Source: Pseudoclavibacter triregionum | GTDB taxonomy: Bacteria > Actinomycetota > Actinomycetes > Actinomycetales > Microbacteriaceae | NCBI GenBank assembly: GCA_910822395.1 | Contig: OU365335.1 | Location: 1,550,001 to 1,614,000 of the forward strand | DNA: 64,000 nt | Direction of reading: 5' to 3' | Shown here: one piece after another, positions 7,089 to 54,735 of the stretch | How the letters are laid out: each line of letters begins with the position of its first letter | Position numbering within the stretch: position 1 is the first letter of the stretch | Notes under the pieces: model-generated | What the model saw: the letters and a program-made list of their open reading frames with translations, nothing else | The model's database searches: none | What the model was told of the DNA's origin: nothing | Program-made: the position numbers and the translations under genes

Positions 7089-7125
7089 ATGCCCGCTGCG
7101 CCGGTCTGATCGGCCATCGTGCAGG

Positions 7126-7195
7126 TTCAGAATCCGCACATCCCGGGGAGATGTCCCATATGCGGGCCCATCTCCCGCTATGTGCGGATTCTGAA
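7126..7195. repeat. ~70-bp palindromic repeat, subfamily A copy 1
   Basis: Outer arms TTCAGAATCCGCACAT (7126-7141) and ATGTGCGGATTCTGAA (7180-7195) are perfectly complementary; the inner part has GGGAGATG facing CATCTCCC. It sits between two convergent genes, where it could act as a two-way terminator. A second copy with the same outer arms is at 29011-29078. Confidence 0.8.
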
Positions 7196-20296: not shown

Positions 20297-21385
20297 CTAG
20301 GCCGGCCGCCGCGAGGCGATCCTCACCGGCAGGCGCCGCCCGTCGAAGCCACCGGGCCGCCAGTCGTCCGTCCAGACGCCCGGAATCGCCCTCCCGCACG
20401 CCGAGCACCGGCCGCCCGGCGCCATCCTCCACTCGACGATCCGGTGCCAGTCGCGCACGATGAGCGCGGCGCCGCACCCGGGGCAGCGCGTCGTCCCGCC
20501 CTCGCGGTCGTGGACGTTGCCCGTGTAGACGTAGCGCTCGCCGGCCTCCATGGCGATCCGCCGCGCCCGCGCGAGCGTCTCGGGCGGGGTGCGGGGCAGG
20601 TCGCGCATCTTGAAGTCGGGGTGGAACGCCGAGAAGTGGTGGGGCACGTCGACGCCGAGCTCCTCGACGATCCACTCCGCCATCGCCCGCAGCTCCTCGT
20701 CCGAGTCGTTCTTCGTCGGGATGAGGAGCGTCGTGATCTCCGTCCACACGGACGTCTCGCGCACGAGGTAGCGGAGCGTGTCCTGCACGACCGCGAGCTG
20801 CGCGCCCGTCACCTGCCGGTAGAACTCGGGTGTGAACGCCTTGAGGTCGATGTTCGCGGCGTCCATCGGGGCGAAGAACTCCGCGCGCGCGGCCTCGGAG
20901 ATGTAGCCCGCCGACACGGCGATCGTGCGGACGCCCCGCTCCCGGCACGCGTGGGCGACGTCGATCGCGTACTCGGCGAAGATGATCGGGTCGTTGTAGG
21001 TGAAGGCCACCGACTCGGCGCCCATCCGCACGGCCGCGTCGGCGATCGCCTCGGGGGAGGCCTGGTCGGCGAGCGTGTCGATCTCGCGCGACTTCGAGAT
21101 GTCCCAGTTCTGGCAGAACTTGCAGCCGAGATTGCAGCCGGCCGTGCCGAAGGAGAGCGCGGACGAGCCGGGCAGGAAGTGCCAGAGCGGCTTCTTCTCG
21201 ACCGGGTCGACGCAGAAGCCGGACGAGCGGCCGTAGGTGTCGAGCACCATGCCGTCGCCCTCGCGCTGGCGGACGAAGCAGAAGCCGCGCTGCCCGTCGC
21301 GGAGCCGGCACTCGCGCGGGCAGAGGTCGCACTGGAGGCGGCCGTCGTCGAGCGCGTGCCACCAGCGGGCGGGATGGCCGGTCAT
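20297..21385 (-). CDS. AmmeMemoRadiSam system radical SAM enzyme
   Basis: 362 residues. The radical-SAM cluster motif is CNLGCKFCQNW (CxxxCxxC, about 76-83), preceded by a cysteine-rich N-terminus (CDLCPRECRLRDGQRGFC) and followed by a C-terminal zinc ribbon with two pairs (CPGC and CSAC). This matches the radical SAM partner of AMMECR1 and Memo proteins. Its ATG overlaps the TGA of the fused Memo-AMMECR1 gene (ATGA at 21382-21385), so they are translationally coupled. The reaction catalysed is unknown; a peptide or nucleic-acid target has not been established for the family. Confidence 0.9.
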   Translation of the reverse strand: MTGHPARWWHALDDGRLQCDLCPRECRLRDGQRGFCFVRQREGDGMVLDTYGRSSGFCVDPVEKKPLWHFLPGSSALSFGTAGCNLGCKFCQNWDISKSREIDTLADQASPEAIADAAVRMGAESVAFTYNDPIIFAEYAIDVAHACRERGVRTIAVSAGYISEAARAEFFAPMDAANIDLKAFTPEFYRQVTGAQLAVVQDTLRYLVRETSVWTEITTLLIPTKNDSDEELRAMAEWIVEELGVDVPHHFSAFHPDFKMRDLPRTPPETLARARRIAMEAGERYVYTGNVHDREGGTTRCPGCGAALIVRDWHRIVEWRMAPGGRCSACGRAIPGVWTDDWRPGGFDGRRLPVRIASRRPA

Positions 21386-22857
21386 CGCAGGTCGCCCTGG
21401 CTCGTGGCGGCGTCCGGCGCCGGCTCCTCGAACTCGGCGACGCGGTAGCGCGAGAGCACGAGGCGGTCGTCCCACCAGTCCTCCGGCAGCCCGGCCTTGC
21501 GCTTGAGGTGGCGGAGGAAGTCGCGCGCATCGGGCAGCTGCTCCCACACCGAGGGCAGGAAGGTGCCGCGGCGCGGGCCGAACTCGAGGAGCACGCCGTC
21601 CTCGCCCGGCACGAGGCGGCGGATGGCGTCCTCCTCGGACTCGACGGGGAACGGCGCGAGCTCGCCGAGCACCGAGACCGAGATGCGGGTGCGCGCGAGC
21701 TCCGCGGGGGAGAGCGGCGGGAAGCGGGGGTCGCCGGTCGCGGCGCGGACGGCGTTCTCGCGGACGTCGACGCCGAGGGAGCGGCGGGGCTCGAGCGAGC
21801 CGATGCAGCCGCGGAGCTGGCCGCCGATGGTGAGGGTGACGAAGGCGGCGCCGGAGCGCTCGAGGGCGGGGTCGGTGGGAGCCGGTTCGGACGCCGTGCC
21901 CACTTCGCCGGCCGCGCCCGCGCGGCTGGGCCCGGTGCTGCCCGCCGGCACGCCGAGCTCGGCCTCGATCGCGCGGCGGGCGAGCGCCGTGAGCGGGGCG
22001 CCGTCGAGCTGGGGCGCGACCGGCTCCCGCACGGCCCCGGCATCCGCCGCCTCGAGGAAGGCGACGGCCGCGTAGCCGACGACCCGGCGCGGGTCGCCGA
22101 TCTCCGGGGCATCCGCCGAGGTCGCGTAGCCGATCGGCTCCGGGCGCAGCCCGCGCCGCCGAGCGAGGGCGAGCAGGCCGTCGACCGGGAAGCGCCCGCA
22201 CGCCGAGCGCGGCGGGAGCGGGAACGCGAGGCGGCGGATGCGCCGGACCGTGTCGCCGTCGATCGCGTGCGCGGTCGGCTCGTCCTCGTAGTGGCTGAGG
22301 TCGCTCGAGACGACGACCGCCGTCTCCGGGCCGCCCCACACGCGCTCGAGGACGTCGGCCATCTGCTCCGGCGGGGTCGGCCCGACCGCGATCGGCAGCA
22401 GCGTGAACTCGCCGAGGCGCCGCTGGAGGAAGGGCAGGATGACCTCGAGCGAGTGCTCGGGCGCGTGCGGCGCGGCGTCCGCGGCGACGCCGGGCATGCC
22501 GGCCACGGCCGCGACGAGCTCGGCGTCGACGGGGATCTCGCCGAGCGGCGTCGCGAAAGCGTCCGCGGCGGGCAGCGCCATCCCCTCGAACGGGACGTGG
22601 TGGATCGGGCCCAGCAGCACGACTCGGCGCACGACGGACGGCTCGAGCACGTCGATCGCGCGGGCCGCGATGAGCCCCGAGTAGCGGTGCCCGGCGTGCG
22701 GGGAGATGACGGCCTTCGCGCCGACGAGCGCGTCGAGCTCGAGATCGCGCACGGCCTCGAGCCTCGCGTCGACCTCCGCGGCGAGGACGGCGGGATCTGC
22801 CGGGTAGAAGGCGCCCGCGACGGCGGGCGGTCGGATGACGCGGCGCTCGACGTCCAT
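21382..22857 (-). CDS. Fused Memo + AMMECR1 protein (AmmeMemoRadiSam A/B)
   Basis: 491 residues. The first part (about 1-265) is a Memo-like domain related to class III extradiol dioxygenases: VAGAFYPADPAVLAAEV, ISPHAGHRYSG, HHVPFEG, EHSLEVILPFL and SSDLSHY supply the His/Asp/Glu metal-site region. A variable linker (about 300-330) leads to an AMMECR1 domain with FVTLTIGGQLRGCIGSLEP. Both domains are also known as separate genes; here one protein joins them, next to the radical SAM partner. GGAGGTGAGC precedes ATG 22857. Human MEMO1 binds copper or iron, but the bacterial role is unknown. Confidence 0.9.
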   Translation of the reverse strand: MDVERRVIRPPAVAGAFYPADPAVLAAEVDARLEAVRDLELDALVGAKAVISPHAGHRYSGLIAARAIDVLEPSVVRRVVLLGPIHHVPFEGMALPAADAFATPLGEIPVDAELVAAVAGMPGVAADAAPHAPEHSLEVILPFLQRRLGEFTLLPIAVGPTPPEQMADVLERVWGGPETAVVVSSDLSHYEDEPTAHAIDGDTVRRIRRLAFPLPPRSACGRFPVDGLLALARRRGLRPEPIGYATSADAPEIGDPRRVVGYAAVAFLEAADAGAVREPVAPQLDGAPLTALARRAIEAELGVPAGSTGPSRAGAAGEVGTASEPAPTDPALERSGAAFVTLTIGGQLRGCIGSLEPRRSLGVDVRENAVRAATGDPRFPPLSPAELARTRISVSVLGELAPFPVESEEDAIRRLVPGEDGVLLEFGPRRGTFLPSVWEQLPDARDFLRHLKRKAGLPEDWWDDRLVLSRYRVAEFEEPAPDAATSQGDLR

Positions 22858-22956
22858 GCTCACCTCCGGCGCGGCCGCGCGGCGGCTCCGGCGACGGCGC
22901 TCGCCCCGAGCGTACGCGCGCCGCCTCACGCCGTGCCCAGCCCGCAGACTTGGCGA

Positions 22957-22991: not shown

Positions 22992-23037
22992 CGGCCCCGT
23001 TCGGTCGCGGAGGCGGCGCGACCGATCTTGGCCCGCC

Positions 23038-23108
23038 TCCCAGATCTTCGGATATGTGATCGCCGACGCGCATGGGAGCTCGGCGATCACATATGCGTCA
23101 ATCTGGGA
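23038..23108. repeat. ~70-bp palindromic repeat, subfamily B copy 1
   Basis: Starts TCCCAGATCTTCGGATATG and ends in the complementary ATCTGGGA; the inner arms CGATCACATAT/ATATGTGATCG pair around a GCATGGGAG centre. It lies between divergent genes, so it is not simply a terminator. Further copies are at 53543 and 54666. Confidence 0.8.
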
Positions 23109-23185
23109 GGGGAGCAGCACGCACGACCCCGCTCGCTGGACCCCGGAGGGCGTCCGGCTCGAGACGCCAGCGCACAGACCACCGG

Positions 23186-28952: not shown

Positions 28953-29010
28953 CCGCATCCCTGCCCGACCCAAACGGGGACGTCCCTCCTTCGGAGACCT
29001 CAAGTGCCCC

Positions 29011-29078
29011 TTCAGAATCCGCAGATCGGGGAGGGATGGCGCGTATACGGGGTCATCTCGCGGTATGTGCGGATTCTG
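29011..29078. repeat. ~70-bp palindromic repeat, subfamily A copy 2
   Basis: TTCAGAATCCGCAGAT at 29011 faces TATGTGCGGATTCTG ending 29078, with inner GGGGAGGGATGG/CATCTCGCGG. Same outer arms as the copy at 7126 and the same context (between convergent genes). Confidence 0.8.
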
Positions 29079-42233: not shown

Positions 42234-43856
42234 GTGCTGAGATTCATCGCTCGACGACTCATCGTCTCGATCTTCATCCTCCTCGGGGCCCTCTTCATCG
42301 TCTACAACCTCACGGCGATCTCGAAGAACCCGCTCGAGGACCTCCTGGAGTCCACGGCTCCGAACAAGCAGGAGCTCATCGCGGCGCGCACGCAGCTTCT
42401 CGATCTCGACGTGCCGCCGCCGGCCCGCTTCTTCCTCTGGCTCACCGGCATCCTCGGCATCTTCATCCCCCGCTTCTTCCTCTGGCTCACCGGCATCCTC
42501 GGCATCTTCATCCCCCGCTTCGACGACCCGAACGGCCTCTTCGGCTTCCTCGGCTCGCACATCAGCTGGGGTGTGAACATGAACAACCAGGACGTCGGCC
42601 CGATCCTCGGCAACGCCGTCGGCCAGACGCTCCAGCTCGTCACGGCCGCGACCGTCCTCGCCATCATCATCGGCGTCGCGATCGGCATCACGACTGCCCT
42701 GCGCCAGTACTCCGGCTACGACTACACCGTGACGTTCCTCGCGTTCCTCACGTACTCGCTGCCGATCTTCTTCATCGCGGTGCTGCTCAAGCAGTACGTC
42801 GCGATCGGCTTCAACGACTTCCTCTCGAAGCCGGAGATCCCGATCCCGGTCCTGCTGCTCATCGGCGTCCTCTCGGGCTTCATCTTCATGTCGATCGCGG
42901 GCGGTCCCCTGAAGACGCGGCTGCTCACCTTCGCCGGCTTCGGCCTCGGCACGATCGCGATCCTCGCGCTCATGCAGGCGTTCGACTGGTTCCGCCACCC
43001 GGGCCTCGGCACGGCGCTCATCATCGTCATCGGGCTCATCGTCGCGCTCGTGACGGCCGCGCTCACCGTGGGCCTGCGCCATCGCCGGAACCTCCTCATC
43101 ACCTGCGGCGTCGCGATCGTCGGGGGCGCGCTGTGGTTCCCCATGCAGTTCGCGATGACGAACACCGTCGGCGCCTGGTTCCCGTGGGTCCTCCTCATCG
43201 GCTTCACCCTGATCGGCTGGGCCACGGGCCGCCTCCTCGGCGGCACGGACGCGCGGACCATCGCCACGAACGGCGCCATCGTCGGCTTCTCGGTCGCAGT
43301 GCTGCTCATCGTCGACCGCGTCATGCAGGTCTTCAACGGCTACTACCAGCAGACCGGCGGACGCCCGATCTCCACGGTCGGCGCGCAGAGCCCGCAGGTC
43401 GGCGCGAACGCCTCCATCTGGCTGCAGATGCTCGACGGCTTCTCGCACCTCCTCCTGCCGACGATCTCGATCATGCTCATCTCGATCGCCTCGTACTCCC
43501 GGTACACGCGCTCGAGCCTGCTCGAGGTCATGAACCAGGACTACATCCGCACGGCGCGCGCGAAGGGCCTCCCGGAGCGCACGGTCGTCATGCGGCACGC
43601 GCTGCGGAACGCGCTCATCCCGGTCACGACGATCGTCGCGGCCGACGTGGGCGCGATCATCGGCGGCGCGATCGTCACCGAGGAGATCTTCGCCTGGCGC
43701 GCGATGGGAACGCTCTTCTCAGAATCGCTCGGACACGTCGACCTCAACCCGCTCATGGGCTACATCCTCGTGACGGCCGCCATCACGGTGCTCTTCAACC
43801 TCGTGGCGGACATCCTGTACTCGATCCTCGACCCGCGCATCCGGCTGGGGGCCTGA
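42234..43856 (+). CDS. oppB: Oligopeptide ABC transporter permease with internal 15-residue duplication
   Basis: 540 residues. N-terminal helix MLRFIARRLIVSIFILLGALF is the OppB start; the BPD_transp_1 domain has EAA loop sequence NQDYIRTARAKGLPERTVV followed by HALRNALIPV. The extra middle helices (about 190-340) are common in actinobacterial OppB. Residues 65-79 and 80-94 are the same 15 residues (RFFLWLTGILGIFIP) twice, encoded by an exact 45-bp tandem duplication; the frame is kept, but a hydrophobic stretch is doubled. Whether the protein still folds is uncertain. The stop is 2 bases before oppC. Confidence 0.9.
   Translation: MLRFIARRLIVSIFILLGALFIVYNLTAISKNPLEDLLESTAPNKQELIAARTQLLDLDVPPPARFFLWLTGILGIFIPRFFLWLTGILGIFIPRFDDPNGLFGFLGSHISWGVNMNNQDVGPILGNAVGQTLQLVTAATVLAIIIGVAIGITTALRQYSGYDYTVTFLAFLTYSLPIFFIAVLLKQYVAIGFNDFLSKPEIPIPVLLLIGVLSGFIFMSIAGGPLKTRLLTFAGFGLGTIAILALMQAFDWFRHPGLGTALIIVIGLIVALVTAALTVGLRHRRNLLITCGVAIVGGALWFPMQFAMTNTVGAWFPWVLLIGFTLIGWATGRLLGGTDARTIATNGAIVGFSVAVLLIVDRVMQVFNGYYQQTGGRPISTVGAQSPQVGANASIWLQMLDGFSHLLLPTISIMLISIASYSRYTRSSLLEVMNQDYIRTARAKGLPERTVVMRHALRNALIPVTTIVAADVGAIIGGAIVTEEIFAWRAMGTLFSESLGHVDLNPLMGYILVTAAITVLFNLVADILYSILDPRIRLGA
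42426..42515 (+). repeat. Exact 45-bp tandem duplication within oppB
   Basis: Copy 1 is 42426-42470 and copy 2 is 42471-42515, identical base for base. A 45-bp unit keeps frame and adds 15 residues. The lack of any difference says the event is recent, or is an assembly artefact. Confidence 0.9.
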
Positions 43857-53503: not shown

Positions 53504-53542
53504 GCGTTCCCGGGGCGCGCCTGGCCCTGCCCGGCGCCGAGC

Positions 53543-53612
53543 TCCCAGATCTTCGGATATGTGATCGCCGACTCGTATGGAGGACCCGCGATCACATATC
53601 CGTTTTTCTGGA
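53543..53612. repeat. ~70-bp palindromic repeat, subfamily B copy 2
   Basis: Begins TCCCAGATCTTCGGATATG like the copy at 23038 and ends CACATATCCGTTTTTCTGGA; the last part has drifted. It lies between two same-strand genes. Confidence 0.8.
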
Positions 53613-54553: not shown

Positions 54554-54665
54554 GCAGGGACGCCTGACGGCCCACGGAGGCGCTCGCTGGCGACTTCAGA
54601 GGCGTCTGAAAGCCCGCCGGCCGGGGCCCTGAGCCGGTCCGGGGTGCGACTTCTCCTCGGTCGCG

Positions 54666-54735
54666 CCCAGATTGACGGATATGTGAACGCCGACGCGTAT
54701 GGAGGCTCGGTGATCACATAGCCGTCGATCTGGGA
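54666..54735. repeat. ~70-bp palindromic repeat, subfamily B copy 3
   Basis: CCCAGATTGACGGATATGTG (54666-) pairs with GATCACATAGCCGTCGATCT ending GGGA at 54735. It lies between the convergent hydrolase and dapD genes. The rest of the 290-bp gap (54554-54843) holds no gene; GGGCCCTCCG-like dyads near 54770-54810 may be a dapD terminator. Confidence 0.8.

Follow-up and report, generated by a model that had tools for sequence, protein, structure and literature searches.

An intact AmmeMemoRadiSam locus with a fused Memo-AMMECR1 protein in Pseudoclavibacter triregionum

The stretch of DNA considered here, called the window, comprises 64,000 nucleotides of Pseudoclavibacter triregionum (contig OU365335.1, positions 1,550,001 to 1,614,000 of the forward strand). 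Two genes on its minus strand are the subject of this text: the first encodes a fusion of a Memo domain with an AMMECR1 domain, and the second encodes a radical S-adenosylmethionine (SAM) protein, referred to as RS (Table 1). An earlier model-made annotation, called here the sequence-only reading, had described this pair as coupled through ATGA, with Memo and AMMECR1 fused. The description holds, as its coordinates are exact, the fusion gene is one open frame, and the profile search places all three AmmeMemoRadiSam families, encoded together in overlapping genes, over the NCBIfam cut-offs. The locus is almost certainly an intact member of the AmmeMemoRadiSam set, and it represents a well-formed, ordinary member of this named set rather than a new system. 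NCBIfam assigns the families no reaction and keeps them under the kind 'hypoth_equivalog', which agrees with the sequence-only reading. The family identity, the fusion, the gene overlap and the conserved metal-site and Fe-S residues are observed directly at the locus, and the overlap suggests that the two genes are co-transcribed.

The Memo domain of the fusion protein matches the whole of TIGR04336 (model positions 1-270 of 270 at amino acids (aa) 9-267, 221 bits, cut-off 26), and the AMMECR1 domain covers model positions 24-175 of 175 of TIGR04335 (aa 326-476, 182 bits, cut-off 99). The residues H54, H86 and C220 of the Memo domain are invariant over 20 fusions including that of the window, and so are LRGCxG (aa 348-353) and KAG (aa 454-456) of the AMMECR1 domain. 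In the alignment of the profile of these 20 fusions to human MEMO1, H54, H86 and C220 correspond to H49, H81 and C244, which a passage of PMC11081632 gives as the iron and copper ligands of the human protein. The assignment to a LigB-type extradiol dioxygenase, with its His-His-Glu iron site, was considered and rejected, as the third ligand position is C220, like in MEMO1. The LigB domain PF02900 was matched neither in the fusion protein (E 0.001) nor in the window genome (E 1e-15). The AlphaFold2 model of the fusion has a mean predicted local distance difference test score (pLDDT) of 88.6 and a predicted template modelling score (pTM) of 0.69. Both domains fold with high confidence, and the stretches with pLDDT below 50 are limited to aa 273-279, 313-325 and 485-491. 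The Foldseek comparison with the PDB returned human MEMO1 and archaeal AMMECR1 proteins as matches of the fusion.

The RS protein matches TIGR04337 over its full length (model positions 1-349 of 349, 600 bits, cut-off 220). Throughout the radical SAM superfamily, the CX3CX2C motif holds the 4Fe-4S cluster that binds SAM, and the RS protein keeps this motif. The N-terminal cysteine motif may bind a further metal or cluster. At the position where other families carry a GGE-type motif, the RS of the window has TYNDP. The C-terminal zinc ribbon had been called extra by the sequence-only reading, a description which does not stand, because the ribbon lies within the TIGR04337 model and occurs in 28 of the 35 aligned RS rows, the window's among them. 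The AlphaFold2 model of RS reaches a mean pLDDT of 90.0 and a pTM of 0.91, and its top Foldseek match in the PDB is 3cb8, the peptide-bound form of the pyruvate formate-lyase (PFL) activating enzyme.

Table 1. Features of the Memo-AMMECR1 and RS genes in the window
Feature	Position	Strand	Basis or remark
RS gene (AmmeMemoRadiSam type)	20297-21385	minus	1089 bp, 362 aa; TIGR04337
C-terminal zinc ribbon of RS, C301-C304-C327-C330	20396-20485	minus	within TIGR04337 model; ordinary for subfamily
CX3CX2C motif of RS, C84-C88-C91 (SAM-binding 4Fe-4S cluster)	21113-21136	minus	invariant in 35/35 aligned RS rows
N-terminal cysteine motif of RS, C19-C22-C26-C36	21278-21331	minus	C22, C26 and C36 near-invariant in the 35-row alignment; C19 less so
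ATGA overlap, RS start on fusion stop	21382-21385	minus	sequence
Memo-AMMECR1 fusion gene	21382-22857	minus	1476 bp, 491 aa, one open frame; TIGR04336 + TIGR04335
AMMECR1 domain, hidden Markov model match aa 326-476	21430-21882	minus	TIGR04335, PF01871
Memo domain aa 9-267, ligands H54, H86, C220	22057-22833	minus	TIGR04336
GGAGG, putative ribosome-binding site, 5 nt before fusion ATG (22857)	22863-22867	minus	sequence; role inferred

The arrangement of the locus was compared with the 80 best relatives, where some of the stretches end at contig ends. Within the stretches covered, Memo and AMMECR1 are fused in 15 of these loci and separate in 51, Memo lacks AMMECR1 in 8, and RS is the sole family in 6. 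All three families are therefore present in 66 of the 80, and in 61 of the 66 they share one strand and the order Memo-AMMECR1-RS. The sequence-only reading had named assembly as a possible origin of the fusion. This is unlikely, because the 15 fused relatives lie on other contigs and both domains are modelled with high confidence. On the RS tree, built from 95 rows (the RS genes above 250 bits against the window RS), the fused state requires 6-7 changes, 2 of which are forced by well-supported branches. Thiobacillus has fused and split forms; its locus L072, counted as split, has overlapping Memo and AMMECR1 frames and could be a frameshift, and L077 is clearly split. An apparent RS-Memo fusion in another locus (L154) was rejected, since after about aa 274 it resembles, by eye, an out-of-frame ribbon, and it was taken as a draft-genome frameshift.

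The window RS is not firmly placed on the tree. A search for the nearest RS relatives, which may omit genomes very near that of the window, gave mostly proteobacterial ones, with up to 70% identity. Among the other genomes compared, 9 of the same genus and 15 of the same family, TIGR04337 never exceeds its cut-off. The horizontal gain of the locus is likely, although its GC content gives no foreign signal. In a comparison of the flanks with 24 relatives, aimed at an empty site (E 1e-60), the neighbouring reductase gene is absent from all 24, and 8 of them have the amylase-like gene. A small alpha/beta hydrolase gene was considered, and rejected, as the co-occurring fourth gene which the sequence-only reading had proposed to seek. 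It comes immediately after RS, in the same orientation, in 24 of the 80 related loci; these loci hold 82 RS-labelled genes, and the 24 belong to the 79 RS genes for which a next gene was called. No match to the hydrolase was obtained in the window genome by a search run without a positive control. One copy (L025:9065-9688) has dienelactone hydrolase as its best Pfam match (E 1.4e-6).

The phylogenetic profile covered 296 genomes of the window's phylum, and genes may be missing from the draft assemblies among them. RS was counted at E <=1e-60 (109 genomes, all over the cut-off), and AMMECR1 and Memo at E <=0.001 (105 genomes, all over the cut-off, and 63 genomes, 61 over it, respectively). All three families are found in 45 genomes, the window's included, RS with AMMECR1 in 48, RS with Memo in 10, RS only in 6, Memo with AMMECR1 in 7, AMMECR1 only in 5, Memo only in 1 and none in 174. 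For RS and AMMECR1 this amounts to 93 genomes with both, 16 with RS but not AMMECR1, 12 with AMMECR1 but not RS and 175 with neither (Fisher p ~1e-45, with kinship ignored). The three families thus tend strongly to occur together, though with exceptions.

The metal domain that accompanies AMMECR1 differs between genomes. Counted within 1.5 kb and among the matches listed, the partner in the 105 AMMECR1 genomes is LigB in 70, Memo in 30 and neither in 5; the Memo places were drawn from the 43 better-scoring ones. In two genomes (G097 and G320) the LigB gene also weakly matches the Memo model at the same place and was counted as LigB. The five AMMECR1 proteins that were tested are LigB-AMMECR1 fusions, and the four separate neighbours that were tested are LigB (PF02900). 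Such adjacency, found in 100 of the 105 genomes among the matches listed, supports the metal domain and AMMECR1 as a functional unit. The ribbon of RS is missing from 7 of the 35 aligned rows, and all seven stand beside a LigB-AMMECR1 fusion with both domains in the same open frame (L129-L132, L135, L136, L158). Two of these ribbon-less proteins were tested and are still over the TIGR04337 cut-off. The LigB-AMMECR1 fusion with the ribbon-less RS is a parallel version of the system with the other metal domain. In two loci (L137, L138), a ribbon-bearing RS stands beside a separate LigB-type gene, and therefore the ribbon and the partner type are not strictly tied.

The preferred interpretation, to which a probability of about one in two is given, is that RS and the Memo-AMMECR1 protein act on one shared substrate and combine the SAM-radical chemistry with a His-His-Cys metal centre. 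RS would cleave SAM, generate the 5'-deoxyadenosyl radical and abstract a hydrogen from the substrate. The Memo-AMMECR1 protein would be a two-domain redox enzyme, with the His-His-Cys iron or copper site in Memo and the LRGCxG loop in AMMECR1, and it would act on the substrate of RS before or after the RS step. A prenylated or nucleobase-type compound is the best single guess for this substrate, and it is put forward with very little confidence. The shared substrate is favoured because the three families exceed their cut-offs, the MEMO1 ligands are kept, and both the CX3CX2C motif and a fold like that of the PFL activating enzyme are kept. It is favoured also because RS and AMMECR1 co-occur, 66 of the 80 loci hold the trio, and Memo or LigB adjoins AMMECR1 in 100 of the 105 genomes among the matches listed.

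Several observations weigh against this interpretation. RS occurs without AMMECR1 in 16 of the 109 RS genomes and without both Memo and AMMECR1 in 6, and 13 genomes have Memo and/or AMMECR1 with no RS at the threshold used. In the 14 ribbon-type RS genomes other than the window's (12 full-length matches, 2 partial), a Memo match was obtained in 11, some of them weak or broken, and AMMECR1 in 3. In G187 (locus L120), which belongs to the same class and has a completeness rating of 100%, a ribbon-type RS is present and no Memo or AMMECR1 match was obtained; therefore, this RS may work alone. Among the control genomes, Haloferax volcanii lacks Memo and RS but has AMMECR1, and Thermus composti has Memo without AMMECR1 and a weak match to the RS model, below the cut-off. 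In addition, human MEMO1 had no dioxygenase activity on the standard substrates tried, according to a passage of PMC11081632. The sequence-only reading had gone further and claimed that the fusion and the coupling show Memo and AMMECR1 acting in one complex on the RS product. The adjacency above supports a functional unit of metal domain and AMMECR1, but the word "shows" is overstated, given RS with Memo and without AMMECR1 in 10 of the 296 genomes, RS alone in 6, and LigB, not Memo, beside AMMECR1 in 70 of the 105 (among the matches listed).

Alternatively, RS may be a maturase that introduces a modified residue or a cofactor into the Memo or AMMECR1 protein, much as the PFL activating enzyme acts on its own target, with the fusion as the working enzyme. 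The best structural match of RS, the peptide-bound PFL activating enzyme (3cb8), speaks for such a role, and so does the distribution of the ribbon, which is missing solely from the seven rows beside a LigB-AMMECR1 fusion, as if the ribbon read the partner. The ribbons retained beside the separate LigB-type genes of L137 and L138 oppose this, as do the RS genes found without Memo or AMMECR1 (6/296 genomes) or without AMMECR1 (16/109), and the 13 genomes in which Memo and/or AMMECR1 exist without RS. The maturase is considered unlikely. It is distinctly unlikely that the families are linked by shared ecology or inherited gene order alone and act on different substrates. Their separate occurrence in several genomes, controls included, fits this explanation. 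Against it stand the repeated fusion, the gene overlap in the window and the proximity of AMMECR1 to a metal domain, LigB or Memo, in 100 of the 105 genomes (among the matches listed).

The neighbourhood of miaA, whose product is responsible for tRNA prenylation, introduces a further set of explanations. The distance between AMMECR1 and miaA was taken in the 84 of the 105 AMMECR1 genomes with both places among the matches listed. The two genes lie within 446 bp of each other in 45 of these 84, across 17 family codes, and in many of the 39 "far" genomes they are on different contigs. The other 21 have no listed miaA place; in two of them the locus itself was read, and miaA is directly beside AMMECR1 in one (G288, locus L156) and 4.3 kb away in the other (G276, locus L151). 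The typical order in the fetched loci is miaB - metal domain - AMMECR1 - miaA, where the miaA of L156 was labelled by Pfam IPPT and the MiaB of L144 by TIGR01574; some of the other labels rest on similarity to these, and the remainder are putative. By partner type, AMMECR1 is near miaA in 42 of the 57 LigB-type and in 0 of the 23 Memo-type genes with a listed miaA. The association lies with the LigB-type relatives and therefore bears only weakly on the window.

In its broad form, the explanation states that a modular metal/AMMECR1 enzyme, with the LigB/Memo swap, and RS make or remove an unrecognised prenylated-nucleobase modification (i6A37/ms2i6A37 where miaA is present) or isoprenoid modification. 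This is improbable, its odds being lowered by the lack of any Memo-type case near miaA among the AMMECR1 genes for which miaA is listed. If true, it would provide the first shared substrate class for MEMO1 and AMMECR1, the human ones included. A 2019 study of Memo-Ammecr1 systems by Burroughs and co-workers, discussed below, reportedly points in its abstract to nucleotide base and isoprenoid modification; if this is right, the base and isoprenoid contexts may already be in print.

In its narrow form, the metal domain, AMMECR1 and RS modify the prenyl group or the base of i6A37/ms2i6A37 tRNA, downstream of MiaA and MiaB. The proximity to miaA and the gene order above are in its favour, together with ispD, which in 10 of the 80 related loci is at most two genes away from the trio; this is a weak point as ispD is on the opposite strand. 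Conversely, the 45 miaA-near AMMECR1 genes comprise 42 of LigB type and 3 unassigned, and the window is of Memo type. In the sole Memo-type locus in the same block (L151, G276), the 4.3 kb up to miaA include a gene on the opposite strand, and the miaA of the window genome is 0.78 Mb from the locus. The tblastn search, with positive controls included, covered the 1.06 Mb of the 80 related loci and detected neither miaA nor miaB in any of them. Four control genomes encode the complete trio, and Thermotoga maritima alone among them has miaA; Methanocaldococcus jannaschii, Sulfolobus acidocaldarius and Methanosarcina acetivorans gave no miaA match. As further genes belong to the block, much of the pattern may come from inherited gene order, and the RS gene is labelled in none of the miaA loci shown. 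The tRNA explanation is consequently held to be quite improbable.

The proposal that RS is an ordinary glycyl-radical-enzyme activase merely adjoining Memo-AMMECR1 is largely refuted and barely credible: RS shares the fold of the PFL activating enzyme and weakly matches PFLA and other activase models, but all these matches are below the cut-offs, and an ordinary activase role is unlikely because no Gly_radical domain (PF01228) was found in any of the ten genomes searched that have a full-length ribbon-type RS, namely that of the window (90% complete) and nine others. Those ten were picked from 15 genomes with ribbon-type RS, and 11 genomes were searched overall. The sole one with a Gly_radical domain (G176) has a truncated RS at the locus. 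In this genome, of the same order as the window's, the RS gene (L148, 7583-8062) ends early at the cluster motif; the adjoining AMMECR1 and Memo frames stay open, and the Memo match is without the first 31 model positions.

The window also contains repeats. A palindromic element is present in three copies (23031-23115, 53542-53611 and 54664-54733), the later ones 83-84% identical to the first over 70 nt, and it looks like an interspersed hairpin repeat family. The first copy has 36-nt arms, 83% complementary, around a 13-nt loop, and it sits between the fusion gene and a divergent YchJ-like gene. A second repeat family with palindromic ends has two 75-nt copies with 79% identity (7119-7193 and 29004-29078), and a perfect tandem duplication of 45 nt x 2 occupies 42424-42513.

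The interest of the system rests on its open function and on the partner-swap pattern in the relatives, not on the window itself. Both non-radical domains have human counterparts (MEMO1 and AMMECR1), and human MEMO1 is not known to have a radical SAM partner. The partner swap and the proximity of miaA to the LigB type offer a concrete way to probe the function, and a positive outcome would bear directly on the roles of MEMO1 and AMMECR1. A functional study of the bacterial trio was not found in the literature searched, as judged by titles.

The components of the locus can be compared with several known structures and systems. The PFL activating enzyme (3cb8, 3c8f) has the radical SAM core fold in common with the window RS, whereas the latter carries additional cysteine motifs and comes from a genome without a Gly_radical match. 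Human MEMO1 (7kq8) has the same fold as the Memo half (Foldseek E 6.7e-22) and the same three iron ligands; it is a single domain with 27% identity, in contrast to the two-domain fusion of the window. The archaeal AMMECR1 structures (1wsc, 1zq7, 1vaj) share the fold of the AMMECR1 half, with LRGCIG aligned in 1wsc. They were solved as single-domain proteins of 207-230 aa, while the window protein has the low-confidence loop at aa 313-325. The LigB-AMMECR1 loci resemble the window in having a metal domain and AMMECR1 beside RS, but they have LigB (PF02900) in place of Memo and RS without the ribbon, whereas the window is Memo-type with the ribbon.

At the level of the whole system, the sequence-only reading had regarded the locus as a candidate for an undescribed one. 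This view is not supported, as NCBIfam already names the families and a passage of a 2020 paper (PMC7159879), with reference to Burroughs et al. 2019, mentions "recently-described Memo-Ammecr1 systems" that have a related radical SAM domain. According to this citing passage, the Memo-Ammecr1 systems (Burroughs et al. 2019, J Biol Chem) have the same three domains as the window. The AmmeMemoRadiSam system (TIGR04335 A, TIGR04336 B, TIGR04337 RS) agrees with the window in its families, in the ribbon within the RS model and in the gene order. The window differs in that it joins A and B in a single protein, an arrangement shared by 15 of the 80 relatives.

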